A stretch of DNA of 64,000 bases, taken from assembly GCA_030684395.1 (NCBI GenBank), contig JAUXTT010000037.1:1-64000 (forward strand). The letters are read 5' to 3'. Source of the DNA: Bacteroidota bacterium. Its GTDB lineage: Bacteria; Bacteroidota; Bacteroidia; B-17B0; Aurantibacillaceae. Each line of letters begins with the position of its first letter. The stretch's first letter is position 1. The notes under the pieces were generated by a model. It saw only the letters and a list, made by a program, of their open reading frames with translations, made no database searches and was not told the origin of the DNA. Below, one piece after another: positions 8,415-19,100 of the stretch. The translations under genes and the position numbers were made by a program.

Positions 8415-8432
8415 TCCCGATAGCTATCGGGA
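8415..8432. repeat. 18-bp perfect palindrome, copy 1
   Basis: TCCCGATAGCTATCGGGA is a perfect 18-base palindrome. Identical copies occur at 11055 and 19074, both outside genes. There is no T-tract on either side, so it is unlikely to be a simple terminator. Confidence 0.85.
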
Positions 8433-9531: not shown

Positions 9532-9810
9532 TTATTTTTTCAGTTTCTCTTCTATCTCCTTCTGAATACGGATTTTAGAAGTATCCGCTAATTTGAAATC
9601 TGAAGGATTTGAGAAAGACTGATGATTAGATTTAAGAGCATTCTCTATGATAAGGCTTTGCTTTTGATATCCTGCGCATTTATCACATATTTTTAAATGA
9701 ATATTTAATTGCAGTTTGTCCATAAACGACAATGGTTTATCATGGCTCTTCTCTATTAACAGAGTAGCCTTTTGGCATGATAAAACAATTAAATTCATCA
9801 ACTTTTTCAT
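9532..9810 (-). CDS. Small zinc-finger protein, putative anti-sigma factor
   Basis: The 92-residue protein carries a HLKICDKCAGY segment near residues 38-48. This is the HxxxCxxC signature of zinc-binding anti-sigma domains, with a further Cys at position 12. It has no transmembrane helix, so if it is an anti-sigma factor it is a soluble, possibly redox-responsive one (ZAS type). It lies 50 bases downstream of an ECF sigma gene, the usual order for such a pair. Confidence 0.7.
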   Translation of the reverse strand: MKKLMNLIVLSCQKATLLIEKSHDKPLSFMDKLQLNIHLKICDKCAGYQKQSLIIENALKSNHQSFSNPSDFKLADTSKIRIQKEIEEKLKK

Positions 9811-9860
9811 GTGTTTTTTTCTTTTAATTTTTTGTCACATGGAGTTACCATTTCATTTTG

Positions 9861-10445
9861 TTACGCTTTAAACCAGTTTTTTTCGAGACAAGCCCTTAAC
9901 TGTAATTTGGCCCGGTGAATAATGACCCAATAGTTAGTCGGTGTAATATTTAATTCCTTACAAACTTTTTCTGTTTCTTCTTCTTCAACCAATTTTAAAA
10001 GGATCAGTTGCTTCTGATTATCAGGAAGTTTGTCGATACAAAGATTTAATGCATTAGCCAGTTCTTTATTCTCAATACTGGTTAAATGCTCTACACCCCA
10101 CTTGTTCGGGGCAGTATTTTTTTCCCAGTCCCCATCTTCGGTAAAGTAATTATCGATATAAGAACTTTCATCAAACGAAAAACTTTGATTACTTATTTCA
10201 TACTTTGTAGAAGCCTTCCGGTAATGATCAGCTATTTTGAATTTTAAAATAGCGAATAACCATGTGCGTTCACTACTTTGTCCTTTAAAATTCTTCATTG
10301 CTTTTAATGCAGCAAGAAAAGTTTCCTGTACCAAATCCTCTGCCAACTCTGTCTTCCCTGTTTTACTCATTGCGTAGCCAAACAACTGATCAGCGTATGT
10401 TGATGTCCAGTTATGAGGGTTGAGTATGTTCGATCTATTTGGCAA
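9861..10445 (-). CDS. ECF-type RNA polymerase sigma factor
   Basis: The 194-residue protein has region 2 (YADQLFGYAMSKTGKTELAEDLVQETFL, then RTWLFAILKFKIADHYRK) and region 4 (LPDNQKQLILLKLVEEEETEKVCKELNITPTNYWVIIHRAKLQLRACLE). The N-terminal ILNPHNW segment fits a Bacteroidota sigma-70 subgroup (TIGR02943-like). The probable start is TTG at 10445. A TAnnTTTG box at 10453-10460 would place the transcript start almost at that codon, so the mRNA may be nearly leaderless. The zinc-finger gene downstream is its likely regulator. Confidence 0.85.
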   Translation of the reverse strand: MPNRSNILNPHNWTSTYADQLFGYAMSKTGKTELAEDLVQETFLAALKAMKNFKGQSSERTWLFAILKFKIADHYRKASTKYEISNQSFSFDESSYIDNYFTEDGDWEKNTAPNKWGVEHLTSIENKELANALNLCIDKLPDNQKQLILLKLVEEEETEKVCKELNITPTNYWVIIHRAKLQLRACLEKNWFKA

Positions 10446-10499
10446 TTAGGAACAAATTTAGCGTTATTCTTTAATTTTATTAATTCTTGCATAAACAAT

Positions 10500-10525
10500 A
10501 AAACCCCAGATTTCTCTGAGGTTTT
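10500..10525 (-). terminator. Rho-independent terminator of tRNA-Leu
   Basis: On the minus strand an 11-base stem (AAAACCTCAGA / TCTGGGGTTTT, one G-T pair) closes a GAAA tetraloop and is followed by T-rich sequence. It begins 9 bases past the tRNA 3' end. Confidence 0.8.
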
Positions 10526-10533
10526 AGGTTTTG

Positions 10534-10614
10534 TACCCAGGAGGAGATTCGAACTCCCACACCTTACGGCATACGCACCTCAAGCGTACTTGTATACCAT
10601 TCCAACACCTGGGC
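10534..10614 (-). tRNA. tRNA-Leu (anticodon GAG)
   Basis: On the minus strand the acceptor arms GCCCAGG and CCTGGGT pair (first pair G-T). The anticodon stem TACGC/GCGTA encloses the loop TTGAGGT with anticodon GAG. A long variable arm (TGCC/GGTG) marks a class II tRNA, and the T loop is TTCGAAT. The gene is 81 bases with discriminator A, and no CCA is encoded. The 5' 13 bases and all of the upstream flank are repeated near 11073. Confidence 0.93.
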
Positions 10615-10691
10615 ATCTTAGATCCTGATAAACAACATTTCGTCAGGGAAACCAAGTTTGTTGTATACTTCTCAAAAACAATTGAGACAAA
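10602..10691. repeat. 90-bp direct repeat, copy next to intact tRNA-Leu
   Basis: This segment contains the first 13 bases of tRNA-Leu and 77 bases of its upstream flank. It is identical base for base to 11073-11162. The two copies flank the GIY-YIG gene. Confidence 0.95.
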
Positions 10692-10734
10692 CACTTAAGT
10701 AATTTGTACACAAAGATGCAAATTTTTTTGGGCA

Positions 10735-11022
10735 TCAAGTGCTGAATTTAGAAATTAATTTTTTAGTTATTTCCGGATAAGATCTTAAATTTTGAATGTA
10801 TTTTTTTGACCTCATTGATTTAATGTGGTTTTCGATCTTCCTTGCAGTGCAATATTCAAGATCATTAATCGTAAAATATAATTCCCAATCATCAGCCTTG
10901 GAAGTATATGAATTAGTAAATACCTTGTTTAAATGATCGGATAATCGCTGTTCTATTTTGTCACAACTCCCGGTATAAAATCTGTTTAGTTTTTGGGAAA
11001 ATATAATATAAACATGTGCCAT
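10735..11022 (-). CDS. GIY-YIG nuclease family protein
   Basis: The 95-residue protein starts MAHVYIIFSQKLNRFYTGSC, which has the GIY-YIG fold's two signature strands in the degenerate form VYI and YTG. RLSDHLNK, YTSKADDWELYF and ARKIENHIK follow at the positions of the catalytic Arg, conserved aromatic and Glu. Members are small stand-alone nuclease domains (UvrC N-terminal/YhbQ-like) whose biology is poorly understood. I chose the ATG at 11022. The frame also extends to a GTG at 11079, but that extension only reads through the palindrome and broken tRNA copy. The gene lies between two copies of a tRNA-Leu segment. Confidence 0.85.
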   Translation of the reverse strand: MAHVYIIFSQKLNRFYTGSCDKIEQRLSDHLNKVFTNSYTSKADDWELYFTINDLEYCTARKIENHIKSMRSKKYIQNLRSYPEITKKLISKFST

Positions 11023-11041
11023 TGTATTTGAAAGAAAAAGT

Positions 11042-11085
11042 GTACTTGTATACCTCCCGATAGCTATCGGGACCAACACCTGGGC
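11042..11085 (-). pseudogene. Broken 5' fragment of tRNA-Leu with inserted palindrome
   Basis: On the minus strand the first 13 bases of tRNA-Leu (11073-11085) are followed by the 18-bp palindrome, then 13 bases matching the tRNA D-arm region (11042-11054). After that the match stops and the GIY-YIG gene begins. Three bases of the tRNA (10599-10601 in the intact copy) are replaced by the palindrome. The fragment cannot fold into a tRNA. Confidence 0.9.
11055..11072. repeat. 18-bp perfect palindrome, copy 2, inside broken tRNA copy
   Basis: Same 18 bases as at 8415. It interrupts a sequence whose uninterrupted form is present at 10586-10614, so this copy is visibly an insertion or replacement. 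Confidence 0.92.
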
Positions 11086-11162
11086 ATCTTAGATCCTGAT
11101 AAACAACATTTCGTCAGGGAAACCAAGTTTGTTGTATACTTCTCAAAAACAATTGAGACAAA
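11073..11162. repeat. 90-bp direct repeat, distal copy
   Basis: Identical to 10602-10691. On the minus strand it is the first part of this locus, so any promoter activity of the tRNA flank would read into the broken tRNA and the GIY-YIG gene. Confidence 0.95.
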
Positions 11163-11205
11163 TATTTAAGCATCAAATAAAGGTACATTTTGGGAGAGAT
11201 AATTT

Positions 11206-12585
11206 TTACTGTTTCAAGCTCTCCAGCTTCATCAATCCTTGCGAAATAATAGATTTTGCTTTTAGTTTTACACGGTTGGTAAGTGATTTACTTTTTGCCA
11301 GCGCTACTTCATTATGGACCCATCTTACAGCATATTCATAAAACTTTTTACTATGTGTACGCTTAAAATCTACTTCTCTGTCGGTATCTGTTTCCCAATC
11401 AGTGATGGAAGTGATGTCATTTTTTATTTCTTCATACAAAGGCGTGCCTTTGATTGGATAAGCAACCGTGATGGTATAAAAACTCGGTTCGGAGATCTTT
11501 AAATGGTTAATTGTTTCTTTTATGTCAGCAGTAGTTTCTCCGGGATAGCCCAACATGATAAAGGTTCCGGCTTCTATTCCAGCTTCCTTACTTTTAATAA
11601 TCATTTCCCGAACCTGTTTCACTTCAACCCTGCGATCCATGGCATCAATGATTTTTTGTGAGCCACTTTCAGCTCCGATCCAGATTCGGAAACAACCACT
11701 TTGTTTGAGCATCGAAATTACTTCATCACTCATGCGATCGGCACGTGTAATAATTTCATAAGGGATAGTTGCATTGTTCTTAACCAGTAAGTCGGAAAAT
11801 TCTTTTAGCCATTTGTGGCTGATAGTAAAAACATCATCTACAAACCAAATTCTGTCAGGATTGTATGTTTCTTTTATGAATTGAATCTCTTGTACAACTA
11901 ATTCCGGGCTTCTTCTTCTGTAGGTCCCTCCATATACTGCTCTGCTACACCATTTACATGTATAAGGGCAACCCCGCATGGTACTTACTGAGATCATGCT
12001 ATAGCCATGTCTGCTTTTCCAGGCATTTAAGTATTTGCCCAGATCTATTTTCTTTCGATTGGGTGCTGGCAGTACATTGATGTCTTTCAGTAATTTTCTT
12101 TCTTCGTTTTTGATTAAAACTCTACCTTTCAAGAACTGTGTTCCTTCAATATGTTCCGGAATAGCATCAGAGGTTTCAAAATGAGAATATATTTCAAGAA
12201 TAGTTTGTTCCCCTTCACCCACACAAATAAGATCTGCACCATAATTCAAGAGATCTTCCGCATGATGAGTTACTTCCGGCCCGCCCAGAATTAGTTTAAT
12301 GTGTTTTAAATGCTCAGTAGTTTTTATCCATTTGATTAGCTTCAACACATTGATACGTGTCATCAGGTTTAGATAAGCCGCTATACAATCAGGTTGGTAT
12401 GATTCTATTTTTTCTTTCAGATCGTTAAATGAATGAAATGTAGAATCAAATACGTCATGCTCTTTTTGGTTCTGCTCCAGATAGGCTGATATATATAGTA
12501 TTCCAAGAGGCACATAAGGTTTCATGATCTCTTGTTCTTTAAGATCATCCTTTATGAAATAGCCATGTGTCAATAGGAATTTCAT
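11206..12585 (-). CDS. B12-binding-type radical SAM protein (first of two)
   Basis: The protein is 459 residues. A Rossmann-like B12-binding-type domain fills residues 1-135 (PLGILYISAYLE, LILGGPEVTHHAEDLL, ICVGEGEQTILE). The radical SAM domain follows, with the iron-sulfur motif CPYTCKWC (Cys206, Cys210, Cys213), and continues through GAESGSQKIIDAMDR and IMLGYPGET. The canonical cobalamin-ligating DxHxxG is not obvious, as in many members. The class contains methylases and ring-forming enzymes acting on lipids, tetrapyrroles and natural products. It is the last gene of a five-gene operon, overlapping the methyltransferase upstream by 4 bases. The substrate is unknown. Confidence 0.88.
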   Translation of the reverse strand: MKFLLTHGYFIKDDLKEQEIMKPYVPLGILYISAYLEQNQKEHDVFDSTFHSFNDLKEKIESYQPDCIAAYLNLMTRINVLKLIKWIKTTEHLKHIKLILGGPEVTHHAEDLLNYGADLICVGEGEQTILEIYSHFETSDAIPEHIEGTQFLKGRVLIKNEERKLLKDINVLPAPNRKKIDLGKYLNAWKSRHGYSMISVSTMRGCPYTCKWCSRAVYGGTYRRRSPELVVQEIQFIKETYNPDRIWFVDDVFTISHKWLKEFSDLLVKNNATIPYEIITRADRMSDEVISMLKQSGCFRIWIGAESGSQKIIDAMDRRVEVKQVREMIIKSKEAGIEAGTFIMLGYPGETTADIKETINHLKISEPSFYTITVAYPIKGTPLYEEIKNDITSITDWETDTDREVDFKRTHSKKFYEYAVRWVHNEVALAKSKSLTNRVKLKAKSIISQGLMKLESLKQ

Positions 12586-18827: not shown

Positions 18828-19100
18828 AACCACAAAGTACACTAAGTAAATACACACAAAGAGACACAAAGTTTTATTTTTTGTATGCTTTAAGCTAACC
18901 TTTGCGAAGGTCGTAGTTACAACAAGCAGATTCTTAAAGTAATTCTGTTTTCAATATGTTTTAAAGCAGGTCTGCAAGGTCTAATTTTATTAACTTAATT
19001 TTTAAGCACTAAGTAAATACACACAAAGAGACACAAAGATTTATTCTTTGAGCTCTTTGTATCAAACTTTGTGTCCCGATAGCTATCGGGATTTGTGGTT
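18828..19100. repeat. Long imperfect inverted-repeat element (a), with internal 32-bp direct repeats
   Basis: The 422-bp gap 18709-19130 holds no gene. It starts at 18828 with AACCACAAAG and ends at 19100 with TTTGTGGTT. The left arm is built of CACAAAG-like words and the right arm of their complements. A 32-base sequence at 18840-18871 is repeated exactly at 19007-19038. The 18-bp palindrome interrupts the right arm at 19074. The rest of the gap (18709-18827) shows nothing I can assign. Confidence 0.75.
19074..19091. repeat. 18-bp perfect palindrome, copy 3, inside an inverted-repeat arm
   Basis: Same 18 bases as at 8415 and 11055. It splits what would otherwise be a run of CTTTGTG-like words ending in TTTGTGGTT, again suggesting insertion into existing sequence. 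Confidence 0.88.

Follow-up and report, generated by a model that had tools for sequence, protein, structure and literature searches.

The window, which is the whole stretch of 64,000 nucleotides analysed here from the genome of a Bacteroidota bacterium, contains one tRNA gene according to ARAGORN, a tRNA-Leu(GAG) at 10533–10614 on the minus strand. Read along that strand, the locus starts with the tRNA leader and tRNA nucleotides 1–13, followed by a hairpin, by tRNA nucleotides 17–29 and by a gene for a GIY-YIG nuclease, after which a second copy of the same 90 bp leads into the whole tRNA-Leu(GAG). The 90-bp direct repeat is exact (10602–10691 and 11073–11162), and so is a repeat of 13 bp (10586–10598 and 11042–11054). 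In the broken copy, tRNA nucleotides 1–13 (11085–11073) and 17–29 (11054–11042) enclose the hairpin (11072–11055), which occupies the slot of the AAT triplet (nucleotides 14–16). A first-pass annotation of this DNA had described the 90-bp copies, the palindrome, the 13 tRNA bases, the gene and the intact tRNA, and its description is exact. Both repeats match the intact copy perfectly, with the hairpin lying between them, so that hairpin and duplication may well have arisen at roughly the same time. The features are as follows:

10533–10614, minus strand: intact tRNA-Leu(GAG), the putatively regenerated target (ARAGORN; Rfam RF00005, 47.4 bits)
10602–10691, minus strand: right 90-bp copy, made up of 77 bp of tRNA leader and nucleotides 1–13 of the intact tRNA (exact repeat)
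10735–11022, minus strand: GIY-YIG nuclease gene, 95 amino acids from ATG (open reading frame, Pfam, dN/dS of relatives, AF2 model)
11042–11054, minus strand: tRNA-Leu nucleotides 17–29 of the broken copy (exact 13-bp repeat; junction table)
11055–11072, no strand assigned: 18-bp hairpin TCCCGATAGCTATCGGGA, a perfect palindrome, in place of the D-loop AAT (nucleotides 14–16) of the broken copy (sequence and junctions; recurring partner of the gene)
11073–11162, minus strand: left 90-bp copy, made up of 77 bp of leader and tRNA nucleotides 1–13 of the broken copy (exact repeat)
8415–8432, no strand assigned: dispersed copy of the identical hairpin, away from a tRNA (sequence)
19074–19091, no strand assigned: dispersed copy of the identical hairpin, away from a tRNA (sequence)

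If started at GTG, the frame of the nuclease gene extends to 11079. The hairpin at 11055 was rejected as a terminator, as no run of T follows it on either strand. A group I intron was likewise rejected: an Rfam scan of 9800–12400 at E values up to 1 returned the tRNA alone, and the adjacent tRNA is uninterrupted. Matches to TIGR01453 lay far under the cut-off (23.3 versus 56.05).

The nuclease and its recurrence beside tRNA genes

The 95-residue open reading frame matches the Pfam GIY-YIG family (PF01541) with 37.6 bits against a cut-off of 22.6, and it belongs to the GIY-YIG superfamily, with Y16, R26, H30 and E64 invariant in 42 aligned rows; the arginine and the glutamate we take to be the catalytic residues of the domain. 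An AF2 model of the protein has a mean pLDDT of 95.2. The best structural alignments were obtained for Slx1 (Z = 8.0, r.m.s.d. = 3.0, 92 residues, 18% identity), the plant resolvase At-HIGLE (Z = 8.0) and I-TevI (Z = 6.3), followed by EF2693 (Z = 5.6), BH0048 (Z = 5.5) and UvrC (Z = 5.4). Foldseek returned no match at E = 0.001, its best being BH0048 (0.0054), and by sequence the nearest solved GIY-YIG relative is also the UPF0213 protein BH0048 (E = 0.02). The predicted fold makes an action on branched or hairpin DNA plausible, with the caveat that such middling Z values are common and that a fold by itself is no proof of function. Among relatives of the gene, dN was lower than dS in all ten pairs tried, with dS saturated in three of them.

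Protein relatives were sought in 60 related genomes, of which 12 gave a match at E = 1e-8, and in 395 genomes of the class, of which 120 gave a match at E = 1e-10. A scan with one peptide pattern over one genome per species of GTDB 220 yielded 373 relatives, and the best 80 of the 373 were kept. The analysis covers 118 loci, 112 of them distinct; L001–L006, L008, L009, L018, L021, L022, L104 and L105 were omitted, those from L008 onwards on the grounds of a contig shared with a kept locus, a cut by a contig end, or a partial or broken state. For loci taken from whole genomes, the gene position used in the fragment and junction analyses is approximate (1501 onward).

A tRNA lies within 900 bp of the gene in 96 of the 112 distinct loci, upstream of it in 74 and downstream in 22, and gene and tRNA point in the same direction in all 96. 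The first-pass annotation had supposed that small GIY-YIG genes recur at tRNA genes together with a partial copy of the tRNA, and this is borne out: 82 of the 96 loci with a tRNA contain such a copy of the neighbouring tRNA, with an insert of at least 8 nucleotides inside it in 76. The same search found fragments on the opposite strand in 3 of the 96 loci and in shuffled flanks in none, so the tRNA fragments are not due to chance. Either the 5′ or the 3′ part of the tRNA can be on the broken side, and inserts are present in 117 of 137 fragments, so that the extra copies are mostly broken. Homologues without a flanking duplication, which the annotation had named as evidence against its proposal, do occur in part: in 16 of the 112 loci no tRNA was found up to 900 bp from the gene (6 of the 16 are at most 700 bp from an end of the fetched stretch), and no fragment was detected in 14 of the 96 loci with a tRNA.

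Judged by record titles, the named hosts are nearly all Bacteroidota, and one of the 42 rows of known order is filed under Alteromonadales. In one scan of viral contigs, 158 stretches fitted a pattern and tblastn found no relatives among them. The arrangement is real and widespread. It is apparently undescribed: in the open-access PMC titles and abstracts searched, no account was recognised of bacterial chromosomes in which a GIY-YIG gene is accompanied by tRNA fragments and hairpins, and the term ‘Bacteroid’ is absent from a GIY-YIG phylogeny paper (PMC1564403).

A tree of 93 proteins, built from few columns and with mostly unresolved forks, requires 11 changes of tRNA isotype versus 30.4 with shuffled labels. 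For the 42 rows of known order, 14 changes of host order were counted (shuffled mean 20.8, least 17) and 3 changes of isotype (mean 7.85, least 6). The tree follows tRNA type more than host order. These comparisons suggest that the units keep to their tRNA type while hosts change often, hosts also being clustered beyond chance.

The hairpin, its junctions and its dispersed copies

The hairpin has the form TCCCGA-N4..8-TCGGGA, or variants of it in which the stem pairs covary. With a perfect 6-bp stem, it is found at most 500 bp from the gene in 97 of the 112 loci, whereas such a hairpin appears in 5 of 127 windows placed further out in these loci. We collected 70 distinct clean junctions from a list that requires exact matches of at least 8 nucleotides and misses worn copies. 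Exactly three tRNA nucleotides are replaced in 45 of these, and 44 of the 45 triplets are RNY (AAT 15, ATT 9, AGT 6, GTT 5, and others) against a background of 27% in tRNAs at large, a count to which the alignment contributes, since the replaced ends must differ from the hairpin ends; few tRNA positions recur. Most of the replaced positions belong to one of three places: the D-loop (for Leu, 13|17), the anticodon region (35|41 for Met and 30|34 for Leu) or the T-loop (68|72 and its equivalents). Over the 70 junctions, the outer stem pair is TA in 45, CG in 21, GC in 2, and CA and TG in one each, these last two being unpaired or wobble; the second pair is C-G in 60, T-A in 8 and otherwise in 2. 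One locus (L057) has a single tRNA copy with all three loops swapped for hairpins.

Across the 395 genomes, the exact hairpin core occurs in 104. Where a genome has a strong relative of the gene (best E ≤ 1e-19), the core is present in 39 of 44 cases, compared with 27 of 76 where the relative is weak and 38 of 275 where none is found at E = 1e-10. The odds ratio is 49 for strong relatives versus none and 34 for strong relatives versus all others; as the genomes are related, these are not independent counts and the P-values are overstated. In ten hairpin genomes without a strong relative, a hairpin lies near 2 of 29 weak GIY-YIG loci, and a tRNA is present in 10 of the 29 stretches, two of which are the same place. 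One genome (G150) carries 60 copies of the core in 2.8 Mb, and its sole relative of the gene is weak and broken by two stops.

In the window’s own genome the palindrome core is present in 67 copies, and a reversed control in none. The first-pass annotation had listed the palindrome, correctly, and could not have seen either these copies or its recurrence as the partner of the gene in other genomes. Just upstream of four further tRNA genes of this genome (Phe, Arg, Leu-TAA and Ala) we recognized by eye gene-less 5′ tRNA fragments with a hairpin in the D-loop, and a PF01541 search found no GIY-YIG gene at these four sites. Gene and duplicated segment, which the annotation had treated as one, do not always occur together, as these four gene-less hairpin fragments (L132, L134, L135 and L136) and L239 of a relative show; the annotation had itself named duplicated segments without the gene as a refutation of its proposal. 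Hairpins lie within 150 bp of a tRNA in 6 of 53 cases versus 0.13 expected with 31 tRNAs, a figure based on those 53 of the 67 hairpins whose places were listed and on an incomplete list of 30 tRNAs from which the window’s own is missing.

Dispersed hairpins at L140, L144, L148, L149 and L151 lie within stop-free frames of 226 to 595 codons, and look as if they had been inserted in frame (18 nucleotides for 3, a net gain of 15). By eye, at the sites inspected in the window’s genome, no general rule places dispersed hairpins in the loops of other stems, and some dispersed hairpins are bracketed by short direct repeats (CTGCG, TTTGTG), as at L137, L142 and position 19074 of the window. The leader of tRNA-Leu(GAG) contains a hairpin of its own (L008, L010, L237, L239), whose stem sequence varies by eye among relatives with its pairing preserved; it may be what remains of insertions in the past.

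Other kinds of hairpin were also seen. At L012, one tRNA-Arg has a GIY-YIG gene on either side; the two genes are different (the second is at L012:1075–1371), each is accompanied by a separate tRNA fragment, and the two hairpins differ, one being of the usual kind and the other CCCGCCTG...CAGG. Another gene of the second kind, at L198, is accompanied by a related, larger hairpin in tRNA-Arg loops. These two cases, the only ones of their kind, suggest that nuclease subfamily and hairpin type are paired. In the distant clade of L153, a different hairpin, TCCCGTTCGAACGGGA, was found by eye inside a tRNA-Asn fragment.

Filled sites, empty sites and tandem arrays

Carrier and empty tRNA sites, the existence of which the first-pass annotation had anticipated, were found within the same genus in two genera. 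In one of them, the flanks of L010 (genome G009) and L237 (G015) are 97–98% identical and the unit is present at tRNA-Leu(GAG) in G009 alone; in L237 the tRNA is unbroken, and no such hairpin occurs over 3.2 kb. The L010 unit is bounded, by eye, by a direct repeat of about 28 bp from the pre-tRNA region, and the difference between the two loci would fit an insertion or, equally, a loss by recombination between direct repeats. At the same place, L239 (G021) has a short form consisting of tRNA nucleotides 1–13, a 16-nucleotide hairpin, 18 nucleotides and the intact tRNA, without the gene.

In the second genus, carriers (L009, L221, L223) stand against empty sites (L222, L224, L225), with neighbouring DNA 86–94% identical to that of L009. 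The native tRNA-Leu(CAA) of the carriers is split into approximately nucleotides 1–24 and 31–81 (29–81 in L223), with small differences, and hairpins occupy the D- and T-loop of the split tRNA; between its halves lie the nuclease gene and an intact tRNA that has a terminator of its own. Judged by eye, the terminator that follows the inner, intact tRNA of L223 does not resemble the native outer flank, which would fit a cassette acquired from a relative. No empty counterpart was found for the window’s own locus, for which matches of the neighbour gene are weak in G001 and absent in G002; in G006 (L227), where the neighbour gene has a good match, the tRNA is absent from the 3.6-kb stretch.

The intact tRNA is identical in L009, L221, L223 and the empty L222 and L224 (L225 differs at two positions), and likewise in L010 and the empty L237, whose leaders are also nearly the same. 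The earlier claim that one tRNA stays intact and the target is spared is upheld here, as the intact tRNA does not differ between carriers and three of the empty sites compared. It follows that the target is regenerated and not interrupted, which argues against the immunity of classical homing and predicts repeated insertion.

Tandem arrays of nuclease gene and tRNA fragment were found at L153 (period ~379 bp) and L154 (~322 bp), both with ~99% identity, and at L152 (~410 bp, 92–94% identity), while L008 has a second copy of 203 bp. The presence of the unit is patchy between sister genomes.

Candidate explanations and known systems

The nuclease, the hairpin and the tRNA piece, found together mostly in Bacteroidota, are best read as a mobile unit that regenerates its target, and it is towards this reading that we lean. 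Mobility is inferred from comparisons. The sequences themselves show that the anatomy recurs, that hairpin and gene are paired, that the unit is present in some relatives and absent from others, that tandem arrays exist, and that tRNA type is kept across a range of hosts. The unit would comprise a GIY-YIG nuclease of about 95 residues, a short hairpin of DNA and part of a tRNA gene together with the leader or terminator of that gene, and would sit in or against a tRNA gene and be read in its direction. After its arrival or tandem amplification, one tRNA would be complete and a second copy broken, with the hairpin of the broken copy standing for about three loop bases. The nuclease, which aligns best in structure with Slx1 and with a Holliday-junction resolvase, would act on branched or hairpin DNA, either at the loops of the tRNA or at the hairpin itself; recombination with the duplicated tRNA or leader might then mend the break, so that the unit would be inserted or multiplied and the tRNA rebuilt. 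The same activity could then account for the gene-less tRNA fragments and the dispersed hairpins. That gene and tRNA always share a strand would be explained if the gene were transcribed from the tRNA promoter.

A self-contained mobile unit that spares its target had been proposed from the window alone. The recurrence, the carrier and empty sites and the intact tRNA agree with that proposal, whereas its likeness to homing and the constant company of gene and fragment do not hold. The gene-less hairpin fragments, the hairpin genomes without a relative (38 of 275) and the weak loci (2 of 29) count against the target-regenerating unit, as do the loci without a tRNA (16 of 112) or a fragment (14 of 96) and the possible deletion at L010/L237. 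More tentatively, and with clearly less confidence, we put forward a new class of bacterial mobile element in which a GIY-YIG nuclease would be matched with an 18-bp hairpin much as a transposase is with its ends: the nuclease might replace an RNY triplet, located in a loop of the tRNA gene, by the hairpin, a partial duplication would rebuild the tRNA, and hairpins would differ by GIY-YIG subfamily.

The hairpin might instead be a REP-like element that prefers tRNA loops and is moved by other means, for example by a Y1 ‘RAYT’ transposase, with the GIY-YIG gene as a passenger that tolerates duplicated sites. What speaks most strongly against the gene being required in cis are the gene-less hairpin fragments (four in the window’s genome, and L239) and those hairpin genomes that lack a strong relative of the gene, and for that reason this account, unlikely as we consider it, keeps an appreciable share of our confidence; the 67 dispersed hairpins and the scarcity of hairpins near weak relatives point the same way. 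A Y1 transposase (PF01797, E ≤ 0.001) is also present in 90 of the 104 hairpin genomes versus 170 of the 291 others. The corresponding odds ratio of 4.6 is, however, smaller than that of 34 for the nuclease, and the nuclease tree tracks tRNA type. Despite the enrichment of Y1 genes in hairpin genomes, the hairpin, by the criterion that detects it at 97 of 112 nuclease loci, lies in the central 1.3 kb of 0 of 20 Y1 loci, and the whole stretches of 2.2–2.9 kb hold a variant in 1 of 20; these loci were hand-chosen from hairpin-bearing genomes, and the L201 gene lies near a contig end, which makes its window one-sided. RAYT was rejected as the partner of the hairpin on this basis.

Classical intronless homing, in which the nuclease would cut a unit-less tRNA allele, the unit would be copied in and carriers would be immune through their broken site, is improbable in our view, although a free-standing GIY-YIG gene adjoins its supposed target, tRNA type is kept amid host changes, and both empty and filled alleles exist. 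The first-pass annotation had likened the unit to a homing element without an intron. This comparison fails at the target, which should be interrupted or altered in carriers: carriers and three of the empty sites share an identical intact tRNA, and the leader of L010 is nearly that of L237, so that the site is not broken. The tandem arrays also fit re-targeting. Membership of the classical homing family was rejected accordingly, since the recurrent target is there (96 of 112 loci beside a tRNA) and a changed or interrupted one in carriers is not, with the proviso that a cut site could lie outside the tRNA. Least probable, in our estimate, is a device that serves the host, in which nuclease and repeats would raise tRNA copy number, or transcripts of the broken tRNAs would act as decoys, against tRNA-cutting toxins. 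Tandem arrays do exist, and phage SegB defeats a defence that cuts tRNA by amplifying a tRNA segment (PMC13096335), but the extra tRNA copies here are mostly broken (117 of 137 fragments with an insert) and presence is patchy between sister genomes.

Among known systems, SegB of T4 is a free-standing GIY-YIG nuclease encoded between phage tRNA genes (PMC2988022), and SegB of T6 drives tandem amplification of a tRNA-segB segment through homologous recombination (PMC13096335), according to excerpts of both accounts. With SegB and other GIY-YIG homing endonucleases of T4-like phages the present unit shares a free-standing gene beside tRNA genes and the tandem amplification of a tRNA segment. Unlike SegB, it resides in bacterial chromosomes, its carriers keep an intact target, and its tRNA fragments are interrupted by hairpins, of which the excerpted SegB accounts (PMC13096335, PMC2988022) make no mention. 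SegB is the nearest working analogue; for the hairpin side, REP/RAYT comes closest. REP elements are paired with RAYT (Y1) transposases, and the present hairpins resemble them in being short palindromes dispersed in a genome (67 copies) and tied to one family of enzyme genes. REPs have been counted in Bacteroidota (PMC3733652, PMC12306157), and the term ‘GIY-YIG’ does not appear in these two papers. Unlike in REP/RAYT, the enzyme here is a GIY-YIG nuclease and not Y1, the palindrome is absent from the central 1.3 kb of the 20 Y1 loci, and the hairpin lies in tRNA loops. The unit is no member of the intronless-homing or the REP/RAYT family, for in each case one defining feature was looked for and was not found.

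Rickettsia palindromic elements are palindromes inside genes, reading frames included, as are some of the hairpins here, but they are much longer than the present 18 bp; we know of no nuclease partner for them. Integrative elements with a tyrosine integrase target tRNA genes and leave one complete tRNA. In contrast to these, the nuclease gene stands alone between the window’s two copies, either the 5′ or the 3′ side may be broken, and a hairpin occupies the loops. To our knowledge, tRNA genes are favourite landing sites of mobile DNA, and the known users carry integrases.

If the target-regenerating reading is true, a unit of ~0.3–0.6 kb, with one 95-residue nuclease and an 18-bp hairpin and present in many families, would be among the smallest mobile units that spare their own target, and it would suggest which agent makes some, at least, of the palindromes in these genomes. 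The closely related carrier and empty strains are a ready natural experiment. The unit would also show how DNA can repeatedly enter an essential gene without killing the cell.
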